From a virus, in IMG/VR virus record IMGVR_UViG_3300031576_000004, positions 99,303 through 163,302 of that record: a DNA stretch of 64,000 bases, one strand, 5' to 3'. Each line of letters begins with the position of its first letter. Within the stretch, counting starts at the first letter, position 1. Below the pieces are notes generated by a model. The model saw only the letters and a list, made by a program, of their open reading frames with translations, was not told the origin of the DNA and made no database searches. Made by a program: the position numbers and the translations under genes. Shown piece after piece: positions 9,881-41,894 of the stretch.

Positions 9881-9915
9881 TTTCTATTCCTCCGTATTTC
9901 TTACGTTAAATTTAA

Positions 9916-11338: not shown

Positions 11339-11962
11339 CTAGGAAGGTGACCCGTCAGAGATGACCAATGCAGCTCCGAATCCGGCAGGAGCGGAGCCGA
11401 CGGAGACCACCAACTCCACACCACTCGGAGCAGCGGGAATGTTGATATTGGTCCCGAACTCCACCCTCTTGATAACGGATTGCTTGATAGCCGTGCACTG
11501 ATGCTCCCAGGAAACCTGAGAGCCAAGGGCAGCGTTGAGAGTAGCCTTGAGAGACTTGGCCCCAATAGCCGTGGTGCCGCCGTCAGAGGCGACGACCAGC
11601 GTCCCGCCCGCAGTGTCCATCGCATTGGCAAACCCGGCCTGGAGAGGAGTCTGACCGACGGTTGCAGTCTCCATATCCACCAGACCAGTTGTCACGTTGT
11701 GCGTTTCGATTGGGTACTGAGGGAACGTCTCGTGACGGGCAACGCCACCGTTGCCATTAATGGCAGCCTGAGCATTCGCAATGCCCTGAGATGTCGTGTT
11801 TGCTGGAAGGTTTACTTCAACAGCGACCAGCTTTCCGTTGACGTCACGGATAATAGTGGAAGCGTTGTTTGGGTGCGCAGCATTAACAGCATTTTGGATC
11901 GCGGTCAGCGTTAAATCGCTTGCCTGAGCCCCAGGATCACAGATTATATTAATCTTCGGCAT
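11339..11962 (-). CDS. Fibre-cluster protein with PxINxxxDP N-terminal module
   Basis: A 207-residue protein. Residues ~1-95 match the start of the 299-residue product at 12139: MPKINIICDPGAQASDLTL versus MPSINVPIDPYSQSSEKTL, and STIIRDVNGKLVAVEVNLP versus AEVIRDVNGKVVEVKVNLP. The remaining ~110 residues are unrelated, beta-rich and Ala/Gly-rich. This common-head, variable-tail pattern is typical of phage fibre modules where the N-terminus attaches and the C-terminus varies. An AAGGGGAG ribosome-binding site precedes the ATG. A strong terminator lies just upstream, so it may rely on readthrough. Confidence 0.7.
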   Translation of the reverse strand: MPKINIICDPGAQASDLTLTAIQNAVNAAHPNNASTIIRDVNGKLVAVEVNLPANTTSQGIANAQAAINGNGGVARHETFPQYPIETHNVTTGLVDMETATVGQTPLQAGFANAMDTAGGTLVVASDGGTTAIGAKSLKATLNAALGSQVSWEHQCTAIKQSVIKRVEFGTNINIPAAPSGVELVVSVGSAPAGFGAALVISDGSPS

Positions 11963-11982
11963 TGTCTACTCCCCTTTCTTTT

Positions 11983-12016
11983 AAAGAAAATGTGGGCGAT
12001 GTCAATATCGCCCACA
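11983..12016 (-). terminator. Minus-strand intrinsic terminator or attenuator
   Basis: On the minus strand, TGTGGGCGAT pairs perfectly with ATCGCCCACA around a six-base loop, followed by TTTTCTTT. It lies 122 bases after the 12139-13038 stop and only about 20 bases before the start of the next gene (11962), leaving little room for a promoter. It may therefore attenuate, rather than end, transcription of the fibre array. Confidence 0.75.
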
Positions 12017-12138
12017 TACTTAACACACTATTTATGTAATGTTGTGTAGTTATTGTTTGTCTTTGCATTTTATAATACGTTTATTACAAGTTCCGGCCGA
12101 GCCATGAACGCGTCTCCTAAATTCTGGCTAACTGCAGC

Positions 12139-14617: not shown

Positions 14618-14822
14618 CACCATTCTCCCTGCTAGGAACATCGTCTTCTATGAAAGCCGTGTCTACATAACGAATAATGACGTTAGCCTCGCCGCGGTTG
14701 GTGTGGAATACCTCTTCTTTAAGTATTTTAATAGATGGGTCGTTTACGAGCTTTTCGTACTCGGCTCTGCCAAGGGATGAATCCAGGGACAGCTTTATGA
14801 TCGACTTTTTCCCAATCATCAT
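14604..14822 (-). CDS. Small hypothetical protein coupled to glycosyltransferase
   Basis: A 72-residue protein whose start overlaps the end of the glycosyltransferase gene (ends 14819), so translation is probably coupled. It is polar and mixed alpha/beta (SIIKLSLDSSLGRAEYEKL, then EANVIIRYVDTAFIEDD). No family was recognised. Tight coupling to the glycosyltransferase hints at a related role, but the sequence gives no direct evidence. Confidence 0.6.
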   Translation of the reverse strand: MMIGKKSIIKLSLDSSLGRAEYEKLVNDPSIKILKEEVFHTNRGEANVIIRYVDTAFIEDDVPSRENGVASN

Positions 14823-17803
14823 GTTGTCGTCTCCAGGAATTCCTTTTGGCCAGAGGTCTCAGCATTATAGATGAGAGTGGGCACCATCGTTAGGGCTACC
14901 TTCTCGTTCTTCCACCTGGAGACCATTTCAAAATCATGCGCGTAGCCAACTTCAGTGCGATTCTTCCACCATCCATATTTCTCTATTAGACTCTTCTTAT
15001 GAAGCACCTCTGATGTATCCACCTGGAACTTCTCTGGGGCAGTACAGAACCTAGGCTTGCCATCTACAAGCATGGATGATAATGCGTAGCTTGCTCCCTC
15101 AAATTTCATCTTATCGTGTAGGCATGATAAATGGTCCGACATAACCGTGTTATCGTCATCTACATACGCTATTAAGTTGGCTGACGACAACATGATCCCG
15201 TAATTCCTAGGAATAGCCCCGCCTGCTCCATGGTTATTGGGCAGGTTAAATATGCGGGCCTTTTCGCAGGCATAATCCTGTAATTCTGGACAATTGTCCC
15301 CAACAATAATTATCTCTTTGGAGAAATAGTCCTGCTCCAAGACGGACGCCACGGCCTTCCCTAGAAGCAGGTTCTTCACCCTCTTGTGAGTCGGGATAAT
15401 CACAGAGATCTTCGGGCCTAAATAGAACTCCTTGATCCGCGGATCTGATGGATGAGCATAATTAAGGATCGGATATTCCTTCAGGGTCTCCTCGAAGAGC
15501 TCGCTGTCCGTATCGAATTCCCCACCCAGCTCTCGGTATTGCGCTATGGATTTAATGCGCCTTGTTGCGTCGTGAAACCCCAGGTGGTGAGTTATTAAGG
15601 AATTCTTAAGTACTACGACTCTATTCGATCCGATAAGCTTCTCATGCACAGGGAAGACCCACCTGATATCAGGCTTGTTCCTGTGCATGAACGGCTTCGC
15701 AATATGCTCCTTGCCGTTTGTGTCCACAAGCTTCGCCAGGAAGATGTCGTATTCATCCTGATCAACGAGCTCCCAAATATTCTCCAGCGTGGACTTGTCG
15801 AGGCGCTCGTCCGGATCAAACATAATGATCCAATCACAGCTGAGCGCAAACTTGCCAATGGCATGATTTCTGGCTCTTGAAAAAGCTGTAAACTCATAGT
15901 CCTCTATGATGGCAACGCCATTATTTTTAGCCCATTCGACGGTGCCGTCTGTGGAGCCAGAATCCAATATCGATATATCATTAGTAATCCCTTTGAACTG
16001 TTCAACAAATCCTGGAAGCGCCTCGATCTCATCCTTTGTGATCGCAATGACCTTAATCTTTGGGTGCTTCCTGTGGAATGGAGCCCTGTTCTCCTCTAGG
16101 ATTTTGTTAATATCGAGATCGTTGGCTTTGAAGGTGGCGTGTCCCTCATGGTGGATCCACGCCCGCTCAACTATCTTGCAGATATACCCAGCCTTGCGAA
16201 CTCGAGCGCAGTAATCTGTGTCTTCAAAGTTAACGAACCTCGTGTCGAATCCTCCGAGCTTCTTGAACATGTCTGTCCTGGTCATCATGCAGACACCCAC
16301 TACAGAATCCACGACAAGGCTTCCATGCCTGAAAGCGTCTTCCTTCTGAACGTATCCCTGAGGGGGACAAGCATAGTTTGAGTACGGGCCAACAACCGCT
16401 GTTGCTTGGGAATCATTTAATCCAATAAGAAGCCTGTCTAGAACTCCAGGCTCTACGACTGTGTCGCTGTTAAGGAAACAGATATATGGCGACGTCACTT
16501 CCATCGCCGCCCTATTGCACCCAGCGGCATAGCCGATATTCGCCTCTAGGTTGATGACCTTGGTTGCCGGCCCTTCAACCGGAACTTTGGATCCGTTGTT
16601 AAGAAGGATAACTGGCAGCGTCGGGTAGTGCTTCTTAACTGATTCAAGGCACCGCTTCGTGAGCTCCGGGGTATTCCAATCAAGGACAACAATGGAGATA
16701 CATCCTTCCCGATGTCTCCTGTTATTGAATTCCTCAAACTCATGGCGGTAATTGTTGCGGCCAATCTCAAGGTTATCCTGAATCGCCTTATTCTTTGTAA
16801 ACGTTGTGTTCTGGAAGGCGTCTAGGAAGCGATAGAGGTATAGACATTTGTCCAGGTGGAAACACTTGGACCTAAGGAAAAAGCGAGCATAGAGGTCCCA
16901 ATCGTCTGCGATCGCTAATTGCGGATTGTACCCACCAAGCTCTCTGAATGTCTTAGCTCGGTAAGCTCTGATGTGGTTCGGCCCAACCGTCAGAAACCAA
17001 CCGAACTGCTTGTAGTACTCTGGGCCAAATCTGTCATAGATATTCGGATTAACAGCCTCCATATACTTCTTCCCGTTGTACTCAAACTCCCTATACCTTC
17101 CATCCTTAACCCACTCTGGGAAGGTGTGCGGGGAACCGTCCTGGAAGAAGCTGGCGCAGTTCGTATAAACCATCCCAGCTTCTGGATGCGATTTAAATGC
17201 CGCGGCGACATCATAGACCGCATCACGAGTAAGCATATCGTCATGATCCAACTCGATCAGGTAAACGCCTGTGCATAGGCGTGTGGCCATGTCCTTTAGT
17301 GCGCCAACCTTGCCTATGTGGTTAACCTTGATCGGCCTGACCCTGTGGTCAATTTTAGCGAACTCTAAGAGGCGCTCGTATGTCCCATCGGTAGATCCAT
17401 CGTCAACGACAACCCATTCCCAGTTCGGATACGTTTGATCTCTGAGAGAGTAGTAGGTGTCCAGGATCATGCCGCCAGTGTTAAATGTCGGCGTATAGAC
17501 CGAAACAAGCGGCTGAACATCATCTTCTTTTGGCGCTGTCCAAATATTGTTTATGTAAACGTTCTGGATCGATTGCGCCACAGCTTCTGGAGTGGCTTTA
17601 GGGTCGCTTACATTCATCCACTTTTTCCGCAGATCGTAGCCCGCTGCGTTGAGCTCACCAGGGAAGAATCCAGTGGTAACAATAACATCTGGCCTGAACC
17701 TGGCTATCGCAGGAAGCAGATCCTTAATGTCTGTTACTGTGCAGGATTCGGCAGGGACATCCCACTGCCGCAAGACAAACAGGACTCTTATTCCACTTAT
17801 CAT
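14819..17803 (-). CDS. Glycosyltransferase with four GT-A (family 2-like) domains
   Basis: A 994-residue protein with four successive GT2-like Rossmann units. Unit 1 (~99-330) has VSVYTPTFNTGG, VVVDDGSTDGT and ELDHDD. Unit 2 (~368-555) has ISIVVLDWNTPE, NIGYAAGCNRA and FLNSDT. Unit 3 (~583-740) has IAITKDEIEALPGF, LDSGSTDGT and FDPDER. Unit 4 (~797-994) has ISVIIPTHKR and AYVDDDN. Acidic DxD-like metal and nucleotide-sugar motifs survive in each. It should transfer sugars to a chain or protein; placed inside the fibre cluster, virion glycosylation is a reasonable inference. The extra N-terminal ~95 residues are unassigned. Confidence 0.87.
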   Translation of the reverse strand: MISGIRVLFVLRQWDVPAESCTVTDIKDLLPAIARFRPDVIVTTGFFPGELNAAGYDLRKKWMNVSDPKATPEAVAQSIQNVYINNIWTAPKEDDVQPLVSVYTPTFNTGGMILDTYYSLRDQTYPNWEWVVVDDGSTDGTYERLLEFAKIDHRVRPIKVNHIGKVGALKDMATRLCTGVYLIELDHDDMLTRDAVYDVAAAFKSHPEAGMVYTNCASFFQDGSPHTFPEWVKDGRYREFEYNGKKYMEAVNPNIYDRFGPEYYKQFGWFLTVGPNHIRAYRAKTFRELGGYNPQLAIADDWDLYARFFLRSKCFHLDKCLYLYRFLDAFQNTTFTKNKAIQDNLEIGRNNYRHEFEEFNNRRHREGCISIVVLDWNTPELTKRCLESVKKHYPTLPVILLNNGSKVPVEGPATKVINLEANIGYAAGCNRAAMEVTSPYICFLNSDTVVEPGVLDRLLIGLNDSQATAVVGPYSNYACPPQGYVQKEDAFRHGSLVVDSVVGVCMMTRTDMFKKLGGFDTRFVNFEDTDYCARVRKAGYICKIVERAWIHHEGHATFKANDLDINKILEENRAPFHRKHPKIKVIAITKDEIEALPGFVEQFKGITNDISILDSGSTDGTVEWAKNNGVAIIEDYEFTAFSRARNHAIGKFALSCDWIIMFDPDERLDKSTLENIWELVDQDEYDIFLAKLVDTNGKEHIAKPFMHRNKPDIRWVFPVHEKLIGSNRVVVLKNSLITHHLGFHDATRRIKSIAQYRELGGEFDTDSELFEETLKEYPILNYAHPSDPRIKEFYLGPKISVIIPTHKRVKNLLLGKAVASVLEQDYFSKEIIIVGDNCPELQDYACEKARIFNLPNNHGAGGAIPRNYGIMLSSANLIAYVDDDNTVMSDHLSCLHDKMKFEGASYALSSMLVDGKPRFCTAPEKFQVDTSEVLHKKSLIEKYGWWKNRTEVGYAHDFEMVSRWKNEKVALTMVPTLIYNAETSGQKEFLETTT

Positions 17804-21007: not shown

Positions 21008-23326
21008 CTATACAGTCAGTTCTGCCGACACAACTTCGCTATTAAATGTCGAAGGCCCAGACCCGCTCGTTCTAACGATCCTGATACCTATCTCATCCCC
21101 AGCAGCAATAGCTACAGATAGAGAACTACTATAAGCGGATGTCGCTGATACGGCAAGAGCGATAGTCGCCAAGACTGTAGGCGTGCCGGATGAATCCTTT
21201 AATATCTCCATATCGAAAGCTCTCGATGCATCAGCAGCGTTAACTTTAATGCTTCCACCAGTAAGTGTACATGCTCTCGGAATAATTATTCCAGCGGTGG
21301 ACCCAACAACACCATCTTCTGTTGCCATATATAACGTTCCGCCAGCAGGAACACCATTGTTACGACTCATGCCGACAAGGAATCGTCCAGACGTTCCTAT
21401 TATTCCTTGCCAACCCTGATTACCTTGGTTGCCCTGAGGACCCTGAAAACCTTGGACTCCTTGGAATCCCTGATATCCCTGCCAGCCCTGGAAGCCCTGA
21501 TTACCTTGGTTGCCCTGGAATCCAGCATTTCCTTGGTTGCCCTGATTACCTTGGTTCCCCTGGTTTCCTTGAGCTCCCTGAACTCCTTGCCAGCCCTGCC
21601 AACCTTGCCAACCTTGATTACCCTGATTCCCCTGGTTTCCTTGGTTACCCTGGAAGCCCTCGTTGCCTTGGTTACCCTGATTTCCTTGAGCTCCCTGAAC
21701 TCCTTGCCAGCCTTGATTCCCTTGATTGCCCTGGAACCCTTGCCAACCTTGGTTGCCCTGATTTCCCTGATTTCCTTGAGCTCCCTGAACGCCCTGGAAA
21801 CCCTGAGCCCCCTGAACTCCCTGCCAACCTTGGTTGCCTTGCCAACCCTGATTTCCTTGAGCGCCAGTGTCTCCGACATTTCCTTGGTTACCTTGATTTC
21901 CCTGGTTACCTTGCCATCCCTGGTTTCCCTGGAAACCCTGAGGACCCTGGATCCCTTGCCAACCTTGGTTCCCCTGATTTCCCTGCCAGCCCTGGTTTCC
22001 TTGAAAACCATCTGCTCCATCAATGCCGGCATTTCCCTGGTTCCCTTGGTTACCCTGATTTCCTTGGTTGCCTTGGAATCCCTGCCAGCCTTGGTTGCCC
22101 TGGTTGCCTTGATTTCCCTGGTTGCCTTGATTGCCCTGCCATCCCTGGTTCCCCTGGAATCCATCTGTGCCGGCAATTCCTTGGTTTCCTTGATTGCCTT
22201 GGAAACCTTGATTGCCTTGATTGCCCTGATTCCCTTGAGGCCCCTGAATGCCCTGCCAACCTTGATTCCCCTGCCAGCCTTGATTGCCCTGGAAACCCTG
22301 GTTGCCTTGGAAACCCTGATTCCCTTGGTTCCCTTGGTTACCCTGGTTCCCCTGATTGCCCTGTGGGCCTTGTATCCCTTGCCAGCCCTGATTGCCTTGC
22401 CAACCCTGAGGCCCTTGCCATCCCTGATTGCCGTCAATGCCCGCGTTTCCCTGGTTTCCTTGATTGCCTTGATTACCTTGGTTTCCTTGATTGCCTTGAT
22501 TACCCTGAAAGCCCTGAGGTCCAGTAAAACCTTGGTTGCCTTGGTTTCCTTGATTGCCCTGGTTACCTTGATTCCCTTGGTTGCCCTGGCTACCCTGATT
22601 CCCCTGATTACCTTGCGAGCCTTGGAAACCAAGAACAACGTCTGTATCAACCTGGTCGCTATAAGATCTCAGAGGTGCGGGTATAACTGGCTTTGTCGCT
22701 AGGTTGAATACCTGTAGGTATATCCAATCAATATCTACCGTCGCTGGAATCAGTGGGAATGCAAATGTAGTTTCAACTCCTCCGTCAAAAACATAGAAGC
22801 TAAGAGTCCATACGCCAGCTGACTCTGTTAGGCGTCCATAGACCTCGTTACCCATCGAGTCTACGAACGCGTTCTGGTTAAGAGGCTTCCTTAACGGAGC
22901 TCTGTTAAAAGGCAGGGCTGTGACGACGCCCTCTGTTGATACCGTGCCGCCAGGCGTTGCTATTGTGAACTGCGACGAGACGTTAACAGATATTGCGCCG
23001 CCGACGATAGTCGTGGTAAGCGCCTGGACATAGTCGGCTGTCTTAACATCTGTTAAAGGCGTTCCTGGAAATGCCGACAGCTCCGCATGAGTTACGATTG
23101 TGTCAACAAGCGGAGAGAAGCTGACCAGCTCAAGCTTCCCCTGATCGATAAGGTTCCTTATCTCTGACTTATTTATCGGATTCGCTGGGTCGTAACGAGT
23201 CCTGTTCGTCCTCTCCATGAGGATGAAGAAGTCATCGAATTCTTTGCTTATCTCACCAGGGACTAGATGTATCCCAGGCTTGGTGAGATATATGTCTTCA
23301 GTTAATGATATGTTTTTAACTTTCAC
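21008..23326 (-). CDS. Collagen-like fibre protein with G-x-Q triplets
   Basis: A 772-residue protein starting at GTG 23326. Residues ~1-232 hold an attachment head whose first ~90 residues (MKVKNISLTEDIY, then EIRNLIDQGKLELVSFS) are a diverged copy of the module in 13449 and 14043. Residues ~233-644 are about 137 Gly-x-Gln triplets, mostly GNQ and GWQ with GFQ, GPQ, GVQ and GIQ. Residues ~645-772 form a beta-rich C-terminal domain (GIIIPRACTLTGGSIKV) that probably nucleates the trimer. The rod should be a stiff triple-helical fibre. Triplets with Gln in the third position and frequent Trp are unusual. Confidence 0.9.
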   Translation of the reverse strand: MKVKNISLTEDIYLTKPGIHLVPGEISKEFDDFFILMERTNRTRYDPANPINKSEIRNLIDQGKLELVSFSPLVDTIVTHAELSAFPGTPLTDVKTADYVQALTTTIVGGAISVNVSSQFTIATPGGTVSTEGVVTALPFNRAPLRKPLNQNAFVDSMGNEVYGRLTESAGVWTLSFYVFDGGVETTFAFPLIPATVDIDWIYLQVFNLATKPVIPAPLRSYSDQVDTDVVLGFQGSQGNQGNQGSQGNQGNQGNQGNQGNQGNQGFTGPQGFQGNQGNQGNQGNQGNQGNQGNAGIDGNQGWQGPQGWQGNQGWQGIQGPQGNQGNQGNQGNQGNQGFQGNQGFQGNQGWQGNQGWQGIQGPQGNQGNQGNQGFQGNQGNQGIAGTDGFQGNQGWQGNQGNQGNQGNQGNQGWQGFQGNQGNQGNQGNQGNAGIDGADGFQGNQGWQGNQGNQGWQGIQGPQGFQGNQGWQGNQGNQGNQGNVGDTGAQGNQGWQGNQGWQGVQGAQGFQGVQGAQGNQGNQGNQGWQGFQGNQGNQGWQGVQGAQGNQGNQGNEGFQGNQGNQGNQGNQGWQGWQGWQGVQGAQGNQGNQGNQGNQGNAGFQGNQGNQGFQGWQGYQGFQGVQGFQGPQGNQGNQGWQGIIGTSGRFLVGMSRNNGVPAGGTLYMATEDGVVGSTAGIIIPRACTLTGGSIKVNAADASRAFDMEILKDSSGTPTVLATIALAVSATSAYSSSLSVAIAAGDEIGIRIVRTSGSGPSTFNSEVVSAELTV
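21395..22630 (-). repeat. Collagen-like Gly-x-Gln triplet repeat
   Basis: About 137 consecutive nine-base units encoding G-[N/W/F/P/V/I/S]-Q, interrupted by short breaks such as GIDGNQ, GADGFQ and GDTGAQ. The repeat keeps several other frames open on both strands. Mixed synonymous codons show it is not a recent simple-sequence expansion. Confidence 0.92.
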
Positions 23327-28679: not shown

Positions 28680-29897
28680 ATGCCAGATTTCGAAATAGAT
28701 CTTAATAAAGCCGCAACCGCTGTTAAGGATCCGCCGGTTGAGGCTAAAGAGCCTAAGGGGGTTGTCGCGAAGCTTCGTCTGATCGAGGATGAGCTCAAGG
28801 GGTTCTTCATCGAAAGAAACGAAGTTATCCACGGGGCAATTCTTGCACACGTTGCCAAAGAACACATTCTCATGCTCGGCCCTCCAGGCTGCGCAAAATC
28901 CGATATCGCAGAAAGCCTTTCAGCGGCTTTCAACGGGTCGAAACTTTTCTACTACCTGATGACCAGGTTCACAACGCCAGAGGAAATTTTCGGCCAGCTT
29001 TCTGTTAGGGCTTTGGAACAAGATCGCTTTAACAGAGTGACTGTCGGAAGGCTTCCAGAAGCCAGCGACGTCGTTCTCGATGAGATCTTTAAGTCATCCT
29101 CGTCCATCTTGAACTCGCTCCTAATGGCTATCAACGAGCGTAAGTTCTTCAACGACGGAGTCATGACAAAGCTTCCTTTGCACACTGTCACTGGGACCTC
29201 AAACGAGCTTCCTGAATCGAAGGAGCTCGACGCCCTCTACGACAGGTTTATGCTCAGGTATAATGTCGGCTATATCCGCGAGACATCGGGTCTCAAGCGG
29301 TTGCTGATGGCTCCTGACCATAAATTCAAGACAACTGTCGATTACTCCGAAATCACCAAGGCTCACGAAGAAGCCATGCAGATTCCAGTTCCTGAGGAGT
29401 CTGCAGACATGCTCACAAGGATCGCCTTGAACCTGCGCGAAGAAGGCATCTTCGTATCGGACAGGCGCATCCGTAATTGTCAGCACGTCATTAAGGCTGA
29501 GGCCTTCCTTAGCGGAAAGACAAAGGTTGACGAGGAGTCCATCGAGATCATCCAGCATTGCATGTGGAATGATCCGAAGGAAATTTCAAAGACACGAAGC
29601 GTTATCCTTGGTGTGGCGAACCCTCTTGCTCAACAGGCTCTCGAGAAGTACGAGATGGCCCTTGAGATCAAGAATAACGTCTACGCTATCAAGGAAGATG
29701 ACAAGCGCAAGAAAGCAACCCTTGAGGCCAACGGCAAAATCAAAAAGTTACACGTTGACCTTAAAAAGATTGTCGAGGAAATGAAGGCCAAGGGAAAGCC
29801 GGCTGCTCGGTATGAGGAGATGCAAAACAGGATTACTGTAATGCATAGTGAGATGCTTATGGAATGCCTCGGGATCGATCAGAAGACCTTGGCTTAA
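28680..29897 (+). CDS. MoxR/CobS-like AAA+ ATPase
   Basis: A 405-residue AAA+ ATPase. Walker A is GPPGCAKS (residues 67-74), Walker B is DVVLDEIFK (130-138), sensor 1 is TGTSN (171-175), and the DRF near 188-190 provides the likely arginine finger. The C-terminal helical lid is followed by a coiled segment. MoxR and CobS ATPases work with VWA-domain partners; here the CobT-like VWA gene lies two genes downstream. The pair may remodel a protein complex or load a cofactor. Substrate unknown. GGAG lies nine bases before the ATG. Confidence 0.86.
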   Translation: MPDFEIDLNKAATAVKDPPVEAKEPKGVVAKLRLIEDELKGFFIERNEVIHGAILAHVAKEHILMLGPPGCAKSDIAESLSAAFNGSKLFYYLMTRFTTPEEIFGQLSVRALEQDRFNRVTVGRLPEASDVVLDEIFKSSSSILNSLLMAINERKFFNDGVMTKLPLHTVTGTSNELPESKELDALYDRFMLRYNVGYIRETSGLKRLLMAPDHKFKTTVDYSEITKAHEEAMQIPVPEESADMLTRIALNLREEGIFVSDRRIRNCQHVIKAEAFLSGKTKVDEESIEIIQHCMWNDPKEISKTRSVILGVANPLAQQALEKYEMALEIKNNVYAIKEDDKRKKATLEANGKIKKLHVDLKKIVEEMKAKGKPAARYEEMQNRITVMHSEMLMECLGIDQKTLA

Positions 29898-30275: not shown

Positions 30276-31285
30276 CCGACAACTGGAAAGACTGTGTTAT
30301 TGAGGGCGCGAAGGAAACAATACAAGCGGCCAAAGAAGAGTTTGAAAAATGCGACGCAAAGATAAAAGAGACCGTTAAATCTGAACTAGCCGCCAGCAAC
30401 GAAGAGATCAGCGAGATGAGCGAGGAGATAATCCGCGAACACGGCTGGGCCAAAACTGGTCTTGAGAATGCCATTAATAACCACGAAAAGGTGGATCATC
30501 TAATAAAGAAATTCGATGCTGCCGGAAGGCGATTCGAATTCATTGATGAGCCTCATATGGATGGCTTCTATAACGGGTCTTGGGGAAGGCAATACCCAAG
30601 GATCTCGAGGACGCTTTGCGTCTTTGACAAAAAGGGAACGGCTAAGGCATGGTACAAAGTTCATAGCGCACCAACAGACGGCATTGAAAACGGCTGGCAC
30701 TCGATGAATATCATTAAGAGGAGCAGCTCCTATTGGAGAGTGCCGCCTATTATGCGGAAAGCATTTAGTGCCGCCGCGAAATTACACTTAGCAATGCTTC
30801 CATATGAGGTAAGCCTAAAAACTGCTTACGGGATGATCGGAGAGCACATCGGATATAGGGATAGAATCATGCGCTTCAAAAGAGTTACATATGGCGTTGC
30901 GTATGGTTTCAATCCTGCGTCTGGAGATTCCATCGGCATTGCCTATGGCCTGGCCAACCTAAAGAACAACGCGAGCATAGAAATTACAGGACCTGTCTGG
31001 CACATTGATAATAGACTTTGGGTAAATAATCAAAACGTTGCCGATGGTTCTGGAGAGGAAAAGCGGAAGTGTGGCGGGATCATACAGTTCTATTCATTTC
31101 GCGAGGGGTCGTTGACATCGGCGTATCAAAAGCGTCCGCTGGTCTACACAGACATCGCAAAGAATGAATTGACGAGCAAGATGAAGTCTCCGATCCAGGA
31201 GGCTAGCTATGATTGGCTCAGTCTCCCAAAGGATCAAATCAAAAGGAGAATAAGTGCGATTCGAGAAATACGCAGTAAAAAATGA
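30257..31285 (+). CDS. Unknown 342-residue protein in MoxR-VWA operon
   Basis: The start is TTG 30257, chosen because GGGGAGGA lies six bases upstream; GTG 30269 is the alternative. Residues ~15-75 are coiled and charged, then an aromatic-rich globular part follows (DGFYNGSWGRQYPRIS and SYWRVPPIMRKAF). It overlaps the 29952 gene and runs 32 bases into the VWA gene, so the three are coupled. I cannot assign a family. Gene order suggests it may be the adaptor or substrate of the ATPase. Confidence 0.64.
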   Translation: MGENVLADNWKDCVIEGAKETIQAAKEEFEKCDAKIKETVKSELAASNEEISEMSEEIIREHGWAKTGLENAINNHEKVDHLIKKFDAAGRRFEFIDEPHMDGFYNGSWGRQYPRISRTLCVFDKKGTAKAWYKVHSAPTDGIENGWHSMNIIKRSSSYWRVPPIMRKAFSAAAKLHLAMLPYEVSLKTAYGMIGEHIGYRDRIMRFKRVTYGVAYGFNPASGDSIGIAYGLANLKNNASIEITGPVWHIDNRLWVNNQNVADGSGEEKRKCGGIIQFYSFREGSLTSAYQKRPLVYTDIAKNELTSKMKSPIQEASYDWLSLPKDQIKRRISAIREIRSKK

Positions 31286-32612
31286 CAGCTTCGACCGGAA
31301 AGCCTTTCAGGACATCCGGAAGAACTCTGAGAGTCTAAAGGGTCAATTTGATAGGAATGCAGAGAAGCTTCCAACGTTTGACACGCTCCAACAGGACGTG
31401 TACTCGGCTCTATACAAATATGAGCCAGAATTAGAAAGCGAACGTCGCTTAGATCCTAAGAATAGGGTCCATCTCGATCTAATTAAAAGCATGATGGAGA
31501 TGAAGGAATATAAGGACCTCAGAGGCCAAACGCTACTGGATGAGTTTGCGTCTGCTCTTGCAACCGATGCTATTGCTGAAAAGATCCTGGAATACCTGCC
31601 TCCGAAGGAGGAAGAGGAACAGGAAGGCGATGGCGATGGAGACGGCAAGGGCAAGAAGAAGAGAAAGAAGCCTAACCCAGACGACATAAAGAACGCCATT
31701 AAAAGTGGCCTTAACGACGCAAAATCATCTGTTAACGAAGCGAATGACTGTCTTGCTGGCTGGGGTCTTGAAAAGGGCCAGCTTCACAAGACAGGCTACA
31801 AAGAGAAGGTCCAGCTCGCCCAAAAGATCATGGGCAGCCACAAGCTGAAGGAGCTCGCGAAGATCGCCGGACGGTTCCGCAGGCTAGCCTTGTCTACGCA
31901 AAAGACAAAGGTTACCCGCGGATGCGATGAGATATTCGAGCTCGAGCGCGGAGATAGCCTTGAGCGCGTGCTGCCTCAAGAACTGGCTAACCTGTGCCAC
32001 CCAGTAAGGAAGTTTGATTTCTACAGACGCTTCACTGAGAAAGATCTGATGCAATATCAGGTTAGAGGCAAGATCAAGGAAGCCAAGGGACCAATCATTA
32101 TCGCAATGGACGAATCTGGCTCTATGAGCGGTGAAAGAGAAATCTGGGCAAAGGCTGTCGGACTAGCCCTAATGGAAATCGCCGTATCACAAAAGAGAAC
32201 CTTCGGATGGGTCCATTTCGGATCCTCAGAAGAGATTAAGACCCACGTCTTCAAACACCAAGACGGGCGTCCAGATATCGAACAGATGATTGAGATGGCA
32301 GAGTTCTTCTTTGGTGGAGGAACCGACTTCGAGTCCCCCCTCACAGAGTGCAGGAAAATCATTGATGGCGATCTGCCAAAAGCAGATGTTGTATTCGTCA
32401 CCGACGGCGAATGCGGCGTTAACGATGAGTTCCTTGAGACATTTAAAAAATGGAAGCAAACAAGCGGGGTTAACGTATACGGAGTCCTTATGGGGACCTA
32501 CGGAGACGAACAGCACCCGACAATGGATCAATTCTGCGACACCGTAATAGACGTGGCTGCATTAGAGGATCGCGGGGGCGATCACGCAGTGAACGTCTTC
32601 CAGCAGATCTAA
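31254..32612 (+). CDS. CobT-like VWA-domain protein
   Basis: A 452-residue protein from GTG 31254 with AAAAGGAG upstream. Residues ~115-145 are acidic then basic (EEEEQEGDGDGDGKGK, then KKRKKPNP), a typical CobT-type linker. The C-terminal VWA domain keeps the full MIDAS: DESGS (residues 286-290), Thr357 in GGGTDF, and Asp384 in FVTDGE. Such proteins pair with CobS/MoxR ATPases (cobaltochelatase and RavA-ViaA are known examples). In this phage no cobalamin genes are visible, so a chaperone-like role fits better than pigment synthesis. Confidence 0.84.
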   Translation: MRFEKYAVKNDSFDRKAFQDIRKNSESLKGQFDRNAEKLPTFDTLQQDVYSALYKYEPELESERRLDPKNRVHLDLIKSMMEMKEYKDLRGQTLLDEFASALATDAIAEKILEYLPPKEEEEQEGDGDGDGKGKKKRKKPNPDDIKNAIKSGLNDAKSSVNEANDCLAGWGLEKGQLHKTGYKEKVQLAQKIMGSHKLKELAKIAGRFRRLALSTQKTKVTRGCDEIFELERGDSLERVLPQELANLCHPVRKFDFYRRFTEKDLMQYQVRGKIKEAKGPIIIAMDESGSMSGEREIWAKAVGLALMEIAVSQKRTFGWVHFGSSEEIKTHVFKHQDGRPDIEQMIEMAEFFFGGGTDFESPLTECRKIIDGDLPKADVVFVTDGECGVNDEFLETFKKWKQTSGVNVYGVLMGTYGDEQHPTMDQFCDTVIDVAALEDRGGDHAVNVFQQI

Positions 32613-35566: not shown

Positions 35567-36355
35567 ATGGGATCCATAAGATTCCAAGTTAGACTATTGG
35601 CCGAAGACGGAGCGGTGCTAAAGGAATTTGAGCGCGTCTTTGCTCCAAAGGCAATCGACAAAAGGTTCAGTGTAGAAGGCAATAGCCCGATGGACCTTTT
35701 CGAAAAGGTTAAAGAAGCCCTGGCCGCCGCAAGAGAAAAGCAGAACGGACTTAATCTTGCGTGCGCTGTTGCAGATAGGCTTGCAGCATCAGCAATTGAG
35801 GGCGAGCGCTACAAGATCTGGTGTGCCCTTGGAAAGAACCCAGATGAATATGCTGCGTGGACAAAGGAAAACCCAATCCCCATCATCGATGAGGCTTCTC
35901 TTGAAAAGACAGATCTTCCTGTTCTCCAGAGGGTCGGCCCTCCAATCGCTGGGGTTGAACTCGTAGACCCACCAAAGAAGCGCAGAGGACGTCCGGCAAA
36001 GATCAAGACAGAAGAGACGCCTTCAGAAGATCCGGTTCCTGCAGAGGCGACACCACAGGCAGAACCAATCAAGAAGCGCAGAGGTAGACCGCCTAAGAAT
36101 CCAGTTCCTCAGACTGAGCCGGCAGCGGAGCCGGTTAAGAAGCGCCGTGGACGCCCACCGAAGAATCCAGTTCCTGAGGCCGCTGCCGAAGAGCCGGTTA
36201 AGAAGAAGAGGGGTCGCCCACGCAAAAACCCGCTTCCAGAAGGTCAGGCAGAGCCCGCAAAGCGTGGCCCTGGAAGACCGAGGAAGAACCCACTTCCTGC
36301 CACGGAAGAGCCTGTAAAGCGCAAAAGGGGAAGGCCTCGCAAGAACCCAGTATAG
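35567..36355 (+). CDS. Multi-AT-hook, histone-H1-like DNA-binding protein
   Basis: A 262-residue protein with an N-terminal globular ~130 residues and a C-terminal tail of six basic GRP hooks: KKRRGRPAK, two of KKRRGRPPK, KKKRGRPRK, KRGPGRPRK and KRKRGRPRK, separated by PVPE/EPV linkers. Such tails bind AT-rich minor groove and can compact DNA. GAAAGGAG precedes the ATG. It ends the 27952 operon and would suit nucleoid-like packaging or regulation of the phage genome. Confidence 0.8.
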   Translation: MGSIRFQVRLLAEDGAVLKEFERVFAPKAIDKRFSVEGNSPMDLFEKVKEALAAAREKQNGLNLACAVADRLAASAIEGERYKIWCALGKNPDEYAAWTKENPIPIIDEASLEKTDLPVLQRVGPPIAGVELVDPPKKRRGRPAKIKTEETPSEDPVPAEATPQAEPIKKRRGRPPKNPVPQTEPAAEPVKKRRGRPPKNPVPEAAAEEPVKKKRGRPRKNPLPEGQAEPAKRGPGRPRKNPLPATEEPVKRKRGRPRKNPV

Positions 36356-37042: not shown

Positions 37043-37080
37043 GGGAGGATGGGGCGGCAACCCCATCCTCCCGTTCTTTT
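37043..37080 (+). terminator. Strong intrinsic terminator after lipoprotein gene
   Basis: GGGAGGATGGGG (37043-37054) pairs with CCCCATCCTCCC (37061-37072) around CGGCAA and is followed by GTTCTTTT. This is a complete 12-bp Rho-independent terminator. It isolates the lipoprotein gene from the RT cassette. Confidence 0.93.
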
Positions 37081-37089
37081 AGGATACAA

Positions 37090-37344
37090 ATGAACACAGT
37101 TGATTTAACATCACAACTTAAGAACGCAAGAGCCTCGGTGGACGAGGCCAAGAGAAAACTAGCAGATATTGCCATGAATGGCGCTAGTGATGAAGACATC
37201 TTCATCCAGAAATGCGCCTATGAAAACTCGGTAGAGCTTGTGAACACTCTTACAGAACGGATTGTAGCAATCCTAAATAACAGGAGTAATAGTGACTCAA
37301 CCGTATTACCTGACAATCCAGGGAAAGAAGAAAACGAAGGCTGA
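37090..37344 (+). CDS. Small helical protein upstream of RT, look-alike of 38595
   Basis: An 84-residue protein with the pattern LTSQLKNARASVDEAKRK, NGASDEDI, then a helix VNTLTERIV. The 38595 product has the same plan (LDAHLKSLALAQATLKRI, NGNSEETI, IASATDKIQQL). The gene overlaps the RT start by 53 bases and follows the lipoprotein terminator. The two small proteins bracket the RT, which suggests partner or toxin/antitoxin-like roles in the RT system. No known family was recognised. Confidence 0.66.
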   Translation: MNTVDLTSQLKNARASVDEAKRKLADIAMNGASDEDIFIQKCAYENSVELVNTLTERIVAILNNRSNSDSTVLPDNPGKEENEG

Positions 37345-38677
37345 ATTTTTTATCTCGAAGGGTAAGCCATCCTGGCTTAACTTCAAACTCCCCGTTGTGA
37401 TCGATGGGGTCACCTATCCTGTGATCTGTTTGGCTTGCAGCAATAGATTTTCCTGCTCTGCTTTGCCGCAGAACTGGAGATCGAGAATGAGCATCGGGAA
37501 GCCTATCCATAAGGATTCCGAGTGCTTCCATTTCAACGTTGCTGATATCTGCAGAAGCTGTTCTTTCACATCCAGCTGCTACAAGCCAACCAGGTCAAAG
37601 TGCATCGCTAGCGGAGGCCCACAGCTAGATGCTCTTCCTAATAGCACTCCAAGAGATGCCACATCCATTAAGGATGGTCGGGAACTCGCCTACAGTATCA
37701 AGACGAAATACAGGGTTATCACGTGGCTCTTAAAGCGCGTGTGCGATCGTGATTCTTCTCTTTATCACACATTCGCGATTAAGAAGCGCGGTCGCAGTGG
37801 CAAGATGAGAACCATTACGGCTCCAGATAAGTATCTCAAGGAAATTCAAAAGAAGATCCTTAAAAATGTTCTCTACCAGTTCCAACCGTTGGACTGTGTG
37901 ACGGCGTTTGTGCCTGGGAAGAATGTCATCAAAAATGCAGCCCAGCACATGGCCGCCACTCCAGGAAGCGTTGATATTAAGGACTTCTTCGATACGATAT
38001 CGTCTCAGCGGGTATATGGACTATTCCGATCGATCGGGTTTAATAAGCGCGTATCTGGAATTATGACTGCGCTTATGACATGGGATGGGAAGGTTCCTCA
38101 GGGAGCTCCAACCAGCCCGTGGATTGCAAACGCCATATTCCACAGAGGGGACAAGAAGATCCTGTCTGCTGCTGGTAAGCTTGGCTTCTCATATACACGA
38201 TACGCCGATGACATTACCTATTCACAGCTTAGCGGATTCTCTAAGGGGAAGAATATCGCCTTCACAGAAATCGTGAAGCGAATCGTAGAGGAAGAGGGTT
38301 TCAAGCCTAACGACGACAAGACAAAGGTTGCCACCAATTACGTTACCGGTCTTAGCGTTTCGGGTGACAAGCCAAACATCCCATACGACAAATTCCACGA
38401 AGTCAGGCAGAGCATTCATAAGGCGTATTGGAACGGGATCGCCTCAGAGGCTTCCTACAACAATGCTCCGGTTGGCTTGTTCACGCAGAGAATCAATGGG
38501 GTACTCCAGTGGTTCACGCAGGTAAACCCTAGCCGTCCTGGGTTATCCAAGATGGTTGAAAAGTGGGAGCTCGCAAAGAAAGGTATAAGACCAAGTGCGA
38601 ACCAATCTAACCAAAGTGGCGCTGGATGCGCACCTCAAGTCGTTGGCGCTGGCACAGGCAACGCTCAAACGAATTGA
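37292..38677 (+). CDS. Retron-type reverse transcriptase with cysteine-rich N-terminus
   Basis: A 461-residue protein from GTG 37292 (CAGGAG upstream). Residues ~130-430 are an RT: NAxxH (NAAQHM, 215-220), motif A VDIKDFF with Asp228, motif B QGAPTSP (270-276), YADD (304-307), and VTG (351-353). NAxxH plus VTG is the retron-RT signature. Residues 46-104 hold eight cysteines in two CX2CX5C units (C46/C49/C55 and C87/C90/C96) plus C78 and C104, a metal-binding module not typical of retron RTs. No msr-msd structure was found near it. It should copy RNA into DNA; the biological role, perhaps defence or counter-defence, is open. Confidence 0.86.
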   Translation: MTQPYYLTIQGKKKTKAEFFISKGKPSWLNFKLPVVIDGVTYPVICLACSNRFSCSALPQNWRSRMSIGKPIHKDSECFHFNVADICRSCSFTSSCYKPTRSKCIASGGPQLDALPNSTPRDATSIKDGRELAYSIKTKYRVITWLLKRVCDRDSSLYHTFAIKKRGRSGKMRTITAPDKYLKEIQKKILKNVLYQFQPLDCVTAFVPGKNVIKNAAQHMAATPGSVDIKDFFDTISSQRVYGLFRSIGFNKRVSGIMTALMTWDGKVPQGAPTSPWIANAIFHRGDKKILSAAGKLGFSYTRYADDITYSQLSGFSKGKNIAFTEIVKRIVEEEGFKPNDDKTKVATNYVTGLSVSGDKPNIPYDKFHEVRQSIHKAYWNGIASEASYNNAPVGLFTQRINGVLQWFTQVNPSRPGLSKMVEKWELAKKGIRPSANQSNQSGAGCAPQVVGAGTGNAQTN

Positions 38678-38876
38678 TGAATCCATCAAGAATGGCAACA
38701 GCGAGGAAACCATTCTTATGTCTAGAGAGGGAACTCTCAAACACATCGCATCAGCTACAGATAAAATCCAACAGCTGGGATCTCACCGCCGAAGCGACTT
38801 TGTAGTTAAGTCGTGCAAGGTGGCACATATGAAACCGGCCATGCACCAGTCGCTTCTGAAGAGAAGCGCAAAATAA
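38595..38876 (+). CDS. Small helical protein downstream of RT, look-alike of 37090
   Basis: A 93-residue protein from GTG 38595, inside the RT 3' end. A GGTATAAGA core without the T-run lies just upstream at 38582. Its helix (LKSLALAQATLKRIDESI) and NGNSEETI segment mirror those in the 84-residue protein at 37090. It ends with a basic tail (HQSLLKRSAK). Overlap with the RT gene suggests translational coupling. Function unknown. Confidence 0.64.
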   Translation: MRTNLTKVALDAHLKSLALAQATLKRIDESIKNGNSEETILMSREGTLKHIASATDKIQQLGSHRRSDFVVKSCKVAHMKPAMHQSLLKRSAK

Positions 38877-38889
38877 AAAGGAGGTGACT

Positions 38890-38907
38890 ATGTACGACTA
38901 TGGTTGA
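38890..38907 (+). other. Five-codon minicistron behind a consensus RBS
   Basis: AAGGAGGTGACT directly precedes ATG 38890, which encodes only MYDYG before a stop at 38907. A short stem (AGGG-ac-TTAAC with GTTAACCCT) follows. An out-of-frame ATG at 38900 opens a 41-codon frame to 39025 that overlaps the 38958 gene. It may be a leader peptide or a chance frame. Confidence 0.3.
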
Positions 38908-38957
38908 TCTTCAGGGACTTAACAGGATAAAACCAGTTAACCCTGAAAGGATAAAAA

Positions 38958-39110
38958 ATGGAAGACAAAGCTACTTCCATATTTCTCGAAGAGACAGCGA
39001 AAATAAACGTGGCAAGATCCATTGAAAATGGACTGCCTATGGCCGCTGCCTGTGTCGCAATTTTTCTTCTTGTAGATCTTGCGGCAAATATTTGCACAGA
39101 TAACAATTAA
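38958..39110 (+). CDS. 50-residue single-span membrane protein
   Basis: A 50-residue protein with a polar N-terminus (MEDKATSIFLEETAK) and one hydrophobic segment (MAAACVAIFLLVDLAANI) near the C-terminus. GAAAGG lies seven bases before the ATG. It is the last gene before the 39122 terminator, downstream of the RT cassette. Small membrane proteins beside RT modules can act as effectors, but nothing here proves that. Confidence 0.56.
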   Translation: MEDKATSIFLEETAKINVARSIENGLPMAAACVAIFLLVDLAANICTDNN

Positions 39111-39121
39111 CTACATCTGTG

Positions 39122-39166
39122 AGGGGAAACAGTCACCAGCAAGGTGATTGTTTCCCTTCTTTTTTA
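39122..39166 (+). terminator. Plus-strand intrinsic terminator closing the RT region
   Basis: GGGGAAACAGTCACC pairs with GGTGATTGTTTCCCTT across a short AGCAA loop, followed by CTTTTTT. It lies just before the convergent minus-strand gene ending at 39168. The paired stem and T-run make a good Rho-independent terminator for the plus strand. Confidence 0.88.
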
Positions 39167-39167
39167 G

Positions 39168-40412
39168 CTATGAAAGAAGCAGGTAGTCTAGAGACGTTGT
39201 TGCAGGAACTGTACCGTGAATGACCTGACCCGCGCCTTTAATCTCTATGGTGACTTCAAGTCCATGCTTGATATCTATCGAGAACTCTCCAAATGCATTC
39301 GTTTGGGCTCTGGCGATTTCAGTGATGGTCTTATTGGTGTATGTTCTCGTGCTGTCTGTATGAAGCACTATAACGGACATTCCAACCGCGGGCTTCCCGC
39401 TCTTCTCTAGGATTCGCCCAAACACACGACACGTGCTGGCAACGTCTGGGGCTTCAGAAGATACAACCTTATCTATTACAAGGAACTCAAATGTATCTGT
39501 CGTTATGTCTAGCCCAACGGTTGACTCGTAGACATATTCCCATGTGCCAAGAACATCAACCTCAGCTATTGGAAACGAGTATGTGAACACGCCAGCAGAA
39601 GCAGGAAGAACAGTCGCTGGAGATCCTAGTTTTTCGAACCCATTAGTATCTAAGACAGACAGCAGTTTGACTGTGGTTGGATTAAACAGAACCCCTGATT
39701 GATTCCTGTACGTAACCGTCAGATCTACCGATTCACCCCTGACAGCCCTAAGCGATGGGTCTGCGCTGGCACTGGAAAGCGTGTTCAAATTGAAATGCGG
39801 AGATTCGGCCTTCTGGAATTCAGAATCCAAGAACTGTGGGCTCATCCTTACACGGGCTGAATACGTCAATGCCTGCGAATCGTCTGCAGCAGCATCCCAC
39901 ACAAAATTAGCTGTCTGCCCCGTCGGACTAGAAGAAATCGCAGACATTGAATCATGCGCAGGATCGCTTGTCCTGAATGCCATCGGTCTTGCGTCCTCAA
40001 ATGTGCCGCTAAGTGAATATTCAGCGCCAACGACGCTTACGATATCGCTCTCATCGTCGTAGATGATGATCGGGATGTCTACAAGTCTAGACCCGTCTAT
40101 CCTCTGGATCGGCTGATTCACTCTTATCCTTGGTGGCCTTGTATAGAACACAGTCCCAAGGACAGCTATTTCTGACTCATTATCGTATTTGTCTTTAAAC
40201 TGTGTATATATCGTCTTCAGTCCGGTAGTGTTGTTCCCACCGAACAAGAACAGATCCCAGTCATATCTCCTGAACTCAAGCGACTCGTAAGGAGAAAATG
40301 TGAGCCCATCGTTTGAAAAGTGCATCTTAGCCGTTGGCTCAAAATCAGCCACAACGGTCAAGTCGACTAGGTGGCTCCTGGTCGCCTTTACTGGGAACGT
40401 TACGCTAGACAT
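39168..40412 (-). CDS. Modular virion protein, Ig-like and carboxypeptidase-regulatory-like domains
   Basis: A 414-residue protein. The N-terminal ~95 residues (KMHFSNDGLTFSPYESLEFR, then YDWDLFLFGGNN) match 45030-46352 (IRFSNDGTTFSPYEPIAQKK and FNWDLSTFGGSS). The middle is Ig-like (RAVRGESVDLTVTYRNQSGV, then VLFNPTTVKLLSVLD). The last ~85 residues resemble a carboxypeptidase-regulatory or transthyretin-like fold (CRVFGRILEKSGKPAVGMSV). The pair is probably a fibre or baseplate-appendage family. It sits next to the 40405 repeat protein. Confidence 0.74.
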   Translation of the reverse strand: MSSVTFPVKATRSHLVDLTVVADFEPTAKMHFSNDGLTFSPYESLEFRRYDWDLFLFGGNNTTGLKTIYTQFKDKYDNESEIAVLGTVFYTRPPRIRVNQPIQRIDGSRLVDIPIIIYDDESDIVSVVGAEYSLSGTFEDARPMAFRTSDPAHDSMSAISSSPTGQTANFVWDAAADDSQALTYSARVRMSPQFLDSEFQKAESPHFNLNTLSSASADPSLRAVRGESVDLTVTYRNQSGVLFNPTTVKLLSVLDTNGFEKLGSPATVLPASAGVFTYSFPIAEVDVLGTWEYVYESTVGLDITTDTFEFLVIDKVVSSEAPDVASTCRVFGRILEKSGKPAVGMSVIVLHTDSTRTYTNKTITEIARAQTNAFGEFSIDIKHGLEVTIEIKGAGQVIHGTVPATTSLDYLLLS

Positions 40413-41121
40413 CTAGCTCACCAAATGTGTTCTTATTGCCATCTCCGAAGTTAACTCCACCAAACCTTAGTCTTGGCGGCTTAAGGTCTATAGTCTCTCT
40501 GCCGATTATAATGTTAGTGTCGTCTGTCCCGTCATTGGCCATTAGCCTGAAATAGATGTCTGTGGGCTCTGTTGGGTTGAAGTCTTCCTGGATGTCCCAC
40601 ATGAACTTGAACGTCGCTCCTGTGGGCGTAAAATCAAGGCCTACGACCCCGCTGTGATCTGGTGACAGGACAAGAGGGGTCATTGTCTCCTGCTCTCCAG
40701 CAAAAGCCCCTGTAAGGCTCCATTCATATATAGTTAAATCATTTAGGTCCCCAACTCCTTCAAAGCCCTTATAAATTATCTTTAGGGACTTCTTGCTTAC
40801 GCTTACGACCTGCTGAGCGCTGAGCAATAACATCCCGTTTGTAATCGTCGTGAAAGTTGCAATTCCGTTGAAGAGCGGCTCAACACTGCCTATAGCCGAA
40901 ATCCCGCTTATAATTGGCGCTGCAGATCCGACAGATGAAATGCCGTCTATTAGTGGGACAGCTGATCCAACTGCAGATATACCAAGGACTGTGGGGACGT
41001 CAGACCCGACTGCAGATATCCCCAAAACCTTTGGGGTGTCTATTGGCGTTAGCAGAAGCAGACCATCAACCTTCGGGGCGTCTGGCGGCGTTAAAAGAGC
41101 GATCCCTCCGCCGGTCGTCAT
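40405..41121 (-). CDS. Repeat-headed virion protein (13-residue repeats)
   Basis: A 238-residue protein. Residues ~17-90 are about five units of a 13-residue repeat centred on VLGISAVGS: VLGISAVGSDVPT, VLGISAVGSAVPL, IDGISSVGSAAPI, ISGISAIGSVEPL, then FNGIATFTT. The C-terminal ~140 residues are beta-rich, with ATFKFMWDIQEDF and an NIIIGRETIDLKPPRLRFGG end. Its ATG overlaps the stop of the LamG-type gene upstream (ATGA), whose own tail carries a matching SVSGISLI unit. Probably a fibre linker. Confidence 0.68.
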   Translation of the reverse strand: MTTGGGIALLTPPDAPKVDGLLLLTPIDTPKVLGISAVGSDVPTVLGISAVGSAVPLIDGISSVGSAAPIISGISAIGSVEPLFNGIATFTTITNGMLLLSAQQVVSVSKKSLKIIYKGFEGVGDLNDLTIYEWSLTGAFAGEQETMTPLVLSPDHSGVVGLDFTPTGATFKFMWDIQEDFNPTEPTDIYFRLMANDGTDDTNIIIGRETIDLKPPRLRFGGVNFGDGNKNTFGELDV

Positions 41122-41894
41122 ATCTTTGGCCCGTCCCCGTCTCTAGACATTATTAATGATATGCCAGAAACAGACGGTGTTGTCTGCAACTCACTAAACG
41201 CCAACCCAGCTCCGCCATTGTAGAGTTGCGTCACCTCTACACTACTCAATGCGCGTTGTGGCCACAAGCGAATACGATCAAGTTTTCCTGTTGTTCCAGC
41301 AGGCCATGGAGCCCCAGGCCCCGCGCCATCCCAGCGAGACCCTATGATAAAAGGTTCTGCATTCGTTAGGCTTCCAATTGCTGCCGTGCTCATCCCCAAT
41401 CCCTGCTCTACAGCATCTTGATACAGATGAACGAGTTGAGCTGCACGATCTACGACAGCCACGATTTGGTGAAGAGCATTGTCAAAGCAAACATCTACGC
41501 CCTGCTTCTGCAGAGAGTTTCCAGGATCGTCTTGCATATAAAAGTGGGTTCTGTTTCCACTACCGAAATCAAAGGTGAAAAAGGACCACCCAGCTAGAGA
41601 GCCCCCATTACGGTGAGCAACAGGAGCGCTCTGAGCAGATGGTGGGCCACATTTCATCCAGAACTCAACTGTCAAGGAACCTGTTCCTACACTTATTCCA
41701 GTTGGAAAATCCTTCTTCGCATAGTCATTTATACCGTCATATTGGCCGCAATTTCCAAATCCTGGGCCAATATTTGCCCCCTGCAGCACTCCAGAGGGAA
41801 TAAGATCATTAATCCCAAGGTCGTCTAGAAAGTTACCACTCGTAGCCTCACATTCGTGAGAGAGGCGCAAATTATTACCGAGGTTATTGGGCAT
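41118..41894 (-). CDS. LamG-domain adhesin
   Basis: A 258-residue protein. ATG 41894 (MPNNLGNNLRLSHECEATSG) is preferred because it overlaps the upstream stop as TAATG. Jelly-roll landmarks: DYAKKDFPTGISVGTGSLTV, EFWMKCGPP, ALHQIVAVVDRAAQLVHLYQ, TGKLDRIRLWPQRALSSVEV, then YNGGAG. The order matches the LamG genes at 6200 and 10241. It ends in one copy of the repeat unit that opens the next gene (TPSVSGISLI). Confidence 0.76.
   Translation of the reverse strand: MPNNLGNNLRLSHECEATSGNFLDDLGINDLIPSGVLQGANIGPGFGNCGQYDGINDYAKKDFPTGISVGTGSLTVEFWMKCGPPSAQSAPVAHRNGGSLAGWSFFTFDFGSGNRTHFYMQDDPGNSLQKQGVDVCFDNALHQIVAVVDRAAQLVHLYQDAVEQGLGMSTAAIGSLTNAEPFIIGSRWDGAGPGAPWPAGTTGKLDRIRLWPQRALSSVEVTQLYNGGAGLAFSELQTTPSVSGISLIMSRDGDGPKI

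Follow-up and report, generated by a model that had tools for sequence, protein, structure and literature searches.

A phage retron-type reverse transcriptase with a conserved eight-cysteine region and a distant array of putative template RNAs

A phage record carries a retron-type reverse transcriptase (RT) with a conserved eight-cysteine N-terminal region and, far from it on the same record, ten tandem retron-type ncRNA units followed by an eleventh. This is probably a phage retron of new layout, in which the one eight-cysteine RT serves eleven or more ncRNAs, each with a template of its own. We lean towards reading it as a viral multiplex retron, in which one RT draws on a tandem ncRNA array that is diversifying and writes from it no fewer than eleven different msDNAs.

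Results

The RT gene lies on the + strand at 37292..38677 of the window, by which we mean the whole stretch of 64,000 nucleotides analyzed (positions 99,303–163,302 of record IMGVR_UViG_3300031576_000004; the entire 163302-base record is referred to as G000). The 461-aa ORF opens with a GTG start immediately downstream of a GGAG ribosome-binding site, has its RT domain at approximately residues 120–435, and matches Pfam RVT_1 (E 1.5e-17), the only RVT_1 match across the whole of G000. A preliminary description had assigned the protein to the retron clade from its NAxxH, YADD, and VTG motifs, and all three are found in the ORF (N215-A-A-Q-H219, Y304-A-D-D307, and V351-T-G). The assignment is borne out by the closest solved protein in both sequence and predicted fold, the RT of retron Ec86 (Eco1; type II-A; 7v9u, 7v9x), which is the top PDB and Foldseek match (Foldseek E 1.2e-20, phmmer 2.7e-37), and by PADLOC retron RT models matching at 1e-65. 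The best-scoring PADLOC models are types III-A and XIII (219 and 218 bits); several retron RT types fall within a few bits of the 219-bit maximum with their partners unmatched, no partner gene specific to types III-A or XIII was found in the phage, and no one type stands out clearly. Against the group II intron RT model NCBIfam TIGR04416 the protein scored 41 bits, below the cut-off of 300. In the RT tree the eight-cysteine RTs sit within an all-viral group (SH-aLRT 95). AlphaFold with 79 sequences resolved the RT domain only: pLDDT is about 96 over most of that domain and stays under 50 along most of the N-terminus. An input of three sequences gave a useless model.

The roughly 130 extra N-terminal residues with two CX2CX5C modules that had been reported for this RT are indeed present, and their eight cysteines can be placed within residues 46–104 (window 37427..37603, + strand). 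They form C46-C49-C55 with C78 and C87-C90-C96 with C104, each module being followed by one further cysteine (CX2CX5C-X22-C and CX2CX5C-X7-C). When IMG/VR was scanned by alignment, this RT N-terminus was met in two phage contigs, L013 and L014, with RTs 39 and 37 per cent identical to that of the window. Given that none of the eight module cysteines varies among these three proteins, though the RTs are only 37–39 per cent identical, the pattern is not a matter of chance. Pfam searches of the N-termini gave no known metal or Fe-S family, returning no family for the window RT or L014 and chance-level matches only for L013. The earlier suggestion of a new RT architecture is supported to the extent that a retron-type RT carries a new, conserved eight-cysteine domain with no Pfam match. 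This domain probably has a metal or Fe-S fold. The CX2CX5C spacing is known in some [4Fe-4S] proteins (Cas4/AddB, SPASM domains), which offers no more than a lead. A search for the N-terminal domain in phages found none, and a phage-lineage scan by way of a neighboring gene recovered only the two contigs already known.

The RT stands in a small cluster bordered on the left and right by intrinsic terminator-like hairpins of 12 bp (window 37043..37072) and 17 bp (39121..39159), all of its features being on the + strand. ORF1 (37091..37344; 84 aa, helical by appearance) overlaps the RT start and ORF2 (38595..38876; 93 aa) overlaps the RT end; the two proteins are weakly similar (pairwise E 0.028). 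ORF3 (38958..39110; 50 aa) has one hydrophobic segment with a mean Kyte–Doolittle value of 2.2 over 19 residues. ORF1 was not seen 5' of the RT in L013 or L014. Small ORFs occupy the position of ORF2 (L013 5173–5529, L014 5152–5436) and small ORFs with a hydrophobic segment that of ORF3 (L013 5578–5766, L014 5433–5696), and the order of RT, small ORF, and hydrophobic-segment ORF is common to all three phages with weak similarity among the small proteins. The context of L013 and L014 also shares a homologous gene farther upstream and a similar-looking tail-side gene downstream on the opposite strand. Pfam and PADLOC found no known effector or toxin domain beside the RT, where the small ORFs are conserved by place.

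Elsewhere in the window there are a protein of 262 aa whose C-terminal half contains several AT-hook repeats of the KRGRPxKN type (35567–36355), an ATPase near a CoxE/VWA-domain protein that may form a MoxR-VWA-like pair (28680–29897 and 31254–32612), a 994-aa protein with several glycosyltransferase matches (14819–17803), and a collagen-repeat tail fiber (21008–23326).

The preliminary description had seen no msr-msd near the RT, which implied that the element lacked one. Upstream of the RT this stands: an Rfam search near the RT returned nothing, the msr models R1 and R2 gave no score above chance on the upstream region, and the msr of L014 and L013 was not found in the window. Hairpins in the ORF1 region (37085–37300, z −2.6) were considered as an ncRNA but not favored, as a search there gave no good a1/a2 pair and ORF1 resembles ORF2. 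Just downstream there is a candidate retron ncRNA (38805..38923, + strand), unproven and overlapping the end of ORF2, with an 8-bp a1/a2 pair and the order a1 GTTAAGTC, a G, hairpins including CGCTTCTgaagAGAAGCG, a G, and a2 GACTTAAC. Its fold is more stable than all of 200 shuffles (z −3.83), and its MFE and centroid structures agree. The implied lack of templates does not hold for the record as a whole, which carries at least eleven units in trans.

A retron-grammar scan across all 163302 bases of G000 led to the array. Ten units lie in tandem at G000 8388–9901, between RusA-like and MazG-like genes, and the eleventh lies 2 kb beyond them (11929–12053). Retron ncRNAs usually adjoin the RT, as they do in L013 and L014, whereas the array is about 128 kb from the RT of G000 on the same linear record, which was assembled from a metagenome and might therefore contain a joining error. 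Every one of the eleven units has an a1/a2 duplex of 7–13 bp with a G after a1 and another before a2, and between them an msr hairpin and then an msd hairpin that differs from unit to unit. The G after a1 was a criterion of the search, so its presence in 11/11 units is not independent; the G before a2, likewise in 11/11, was not used when the units were first found. The 1.6 kb of the array hold 14 a1-G..a2 pairs with a length of 8 nt or more, against a Markov mean of 0.9 (maximum 5 in 500 runs). The strict grammar gives 14 matches on the whole strand, 11 of them in the array, against a null of 3.1 per strand and at most two per 1.7 kb. All eleven units have retron-shaped folds (mean z about −2.7), and the msr covaries across the array (92.9 per cent paired vs 64 per cent when shuffled), with a score matched by none of 500 shuffles. 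The eleventh unit was recovered by R1, an msr-only model, at E 0.043, and its own a2, which is absent from the model, is present at the right place.

Similarity between units is mostly limited to the msr and the stretch before a2, and the msd hairpins share nothing clear, so that the frame is kept while the templates differ. Against the rest of the record the units give only short chance-level matches, with no second copy of any unit, and the array DNA has no match in the phage collection. A terminator scan of the array region came out near shuffles. The same record carries 33 tRNA genes and a tmRNA (G000 82775–87421 and 89105–89495; L265), and at G000 40168–41826 (L263) long ORF-poor stretches with irregular repeats around an AGCAGC core; both lie outside the window.

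In L013 and L014 the ORF-poor DNA 5' of the RT contains several retron-type units, ordered as a1, G, a GTA-like run, a small hairpin r-GGCGnnnCGCC-y, a long hairpin, G, and a2. Units with this recurrent msr hairpin occur directly 5' of the RT in four and three copies in the two relatives, and the hairpin covaries over the seven copies (100 per cent paired vs 87 per cent shuffled). The final a2 touches the RT start in both, and the last unit folds with z −5.05 in L014 and −2.15 in L013. L014 has one msr followed by about eight different hairpin msd-a2 modules, each closed by GGAAAGGTAGGC, a motif present there in nine copies within one mismatch and nowhere else in its genome. Beyond L014, the pattern was met in two IMG/VR contigs only, both pentapeptide-repeat coding DNA, and was discarded. 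L013 and L014 are not distinct among 154 retron loci when judged only by strict rules of exact a1/a2 pairing; the claim of multiple copies in them is founded on the recurrent hairpin and the a2 motif. A perfect 12-nt a1/a2-like pair at L013 3138–3429 (TCTACCGGCTGG / CCAGCCGGTAGA) may mark a further unit. The msr of G000 has no match in G001 or G002 on the RT-sense strand; hits of R1 in G001 and G002 and of R2 in G000 ran opposite to the grammar, by way of a near-symmetrical hairpin, and were not counted.

Among the 154 retron loci compared, zero to two units upstream of the RT are the rule, and the array count is far above this. R1 and R2 were applied to 45 records of phages that carry a retron RT and found arrays only in those with eight-cysteine RTs; R2 recovered its own four and three units and elsewhere gave weak single matches. 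Apparent arrays in L142, L120, and L141 were judged to reflect base composition (loci of 68–72 per cent GC), and an Rfam search of the L173 and L174 loci gave nothing convincing. Two retron-type a1/a2 units lie near one RT in L171 (1781 and 3231; a Beggiatoa MAG) and in L278 (4585 and 4832), so that bacteria and other phages, too, may have RTs with two templates.

Discussion

Retrons described in the literature examined have one template RNA per RT. The literature searched, in which subscription papers are poorly covered, yielded no report of retron templates in tandem, so that priority is not assured. Ec86 has one ncRNA beside its RT and a nucleoside deoxyribosyltransferase-like partner. The order of its ncRNA (a1, branch G, msr, msd, a2) is that of the array units, and its RT has a similar fold; its RT chains, at 309–349 residues, are without the cysteine domain that the window RT has. 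The PADLOC type XIII model has about 110 positions ahead of its matched part, and the window RT N-terminus is unmatched. Diversity-generating retroelements are likewise phage-associated and pair an RT with a template RNA, but their RT matches less well in structure (8ub7, E 2.4e-9), and the phage system has retron motifs and a1/a2 grammar. Since no unit has a second copy in the genome, none of them belongs to a template/variable repeat pair.

There is reason to think that such a system could work in trans. Because the array does not adjoin the RT in G000, the link between the two is drawn from the single RT on the record and from the two relatives, and from these we infer that this RT copies the array units. 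Other retrons are known to prime from the 2'-OH of a conserved guanosine beside a1/a2, and Eco1 remains functional, at a lower level, when msr and msd are made from two promoters (PMC8989520), which makes templates in trans with a common msr plausible. The array would be transcribed, and each unit would fold with its own a1/a2 and the common small msr hairpin, as the predicted folds and covariation indicate, to be recognized by the RT through the msr. The RT would then use the 2'-OH of the G that follows a1 as its primer and copy the msd, giving about eleven different hairpin msDNAs by the known retron mechanism (PMC8989520). The cysteine domain may bind nucleic acid or a partner, and the small partner proteins, one of them probably membrane-spanning, may be the output. 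The template set could grow in the manner of a cassette array, as the single msr and its succession of msd-a2 modules in L014 suggest.

The RT might instead use only the adjoining ncRNA at 38805–38923, like an ordinary retron, with the distant array serving something else. The candidate does sit beside the RT with an 8-bp a1/a2 pair, a flanking G on both sides, and a stable fold, but it fits neither R1 nor R2, overlaps ORF2, and is one of three strict-grammar matches outside the array, where chance gives about three per 163-kb strand. For the 2.1-kb cluster alone chance would give about 0.04, so the candidate may itself be genuine. The units of the relatives are upstream of the RT, moreover, and the record offers no other RT match that might use the array, and we regard this alternative as unlikely. 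Still a little less likely is that the array consists of structured RNAs or DNA hairpins with no role in reverse transcription, such as sites of protein binding or signals for processing or termination. In its favor, intergenic phage DNA often contains hairpins as such, and the array is far from the RT. Such elements would not be expected to repeat the full retron grammar (a1/a2, both Gs, msr and then msd) in every unit, nor would one predicted from its msr be confirmed by its a2; the terminator scan does not favor termination signals, and homologous RTs have arrays of units upstream.

The reading of the array as a template set for this one RT leaves two views of function, with both of which it is compatible. 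The most likely role is a multi-msDNA decoy or sensor set in phage–host or phage–phage conflict, where many different msDNAs would allow a wider choice of proteins to be bound or sensed. The element may be a phage-borne defense against competing phages, each msDNA acting as a sensor that guards a toxic small membrane protein, ORF3; this concerns the function of the element and not its identity, and we put it forward tentatively. This view is in keeping with the small ORFs found after the RT in each of the three phages, the second of which has a hydrophobic segment, and with bacterial retrons, which are defense systems made up of an RT, an ncRNA, and a toxic effector (PMC12548924), but no known effector domain was found and the toxicity of ORF3 is putative. 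With the same reserve, the msDNAs might instead serve counter-defense as decoys, keeping the retrons or the DNA-sensing proteins of the host occupied. Diverse templates joined to a constant RT-binding part suit a decoy set, as does the lack of a recognizable toxin domain by the RT; against this, no target emerged from the record, where the units' matches are at chance level, or from the phage collection, where the array DNA is unmatched.

If the multiplex reading is true, an array of templates acting in trans, carried by a phage and not by its host, would reveal how selection varies the sequence of msDNA, and the purpose of that sequence would become directly testable, unit by unit. It would also provide single-stranded DNA from a source that is multiplex by nature, together with a new RT accessory domain.
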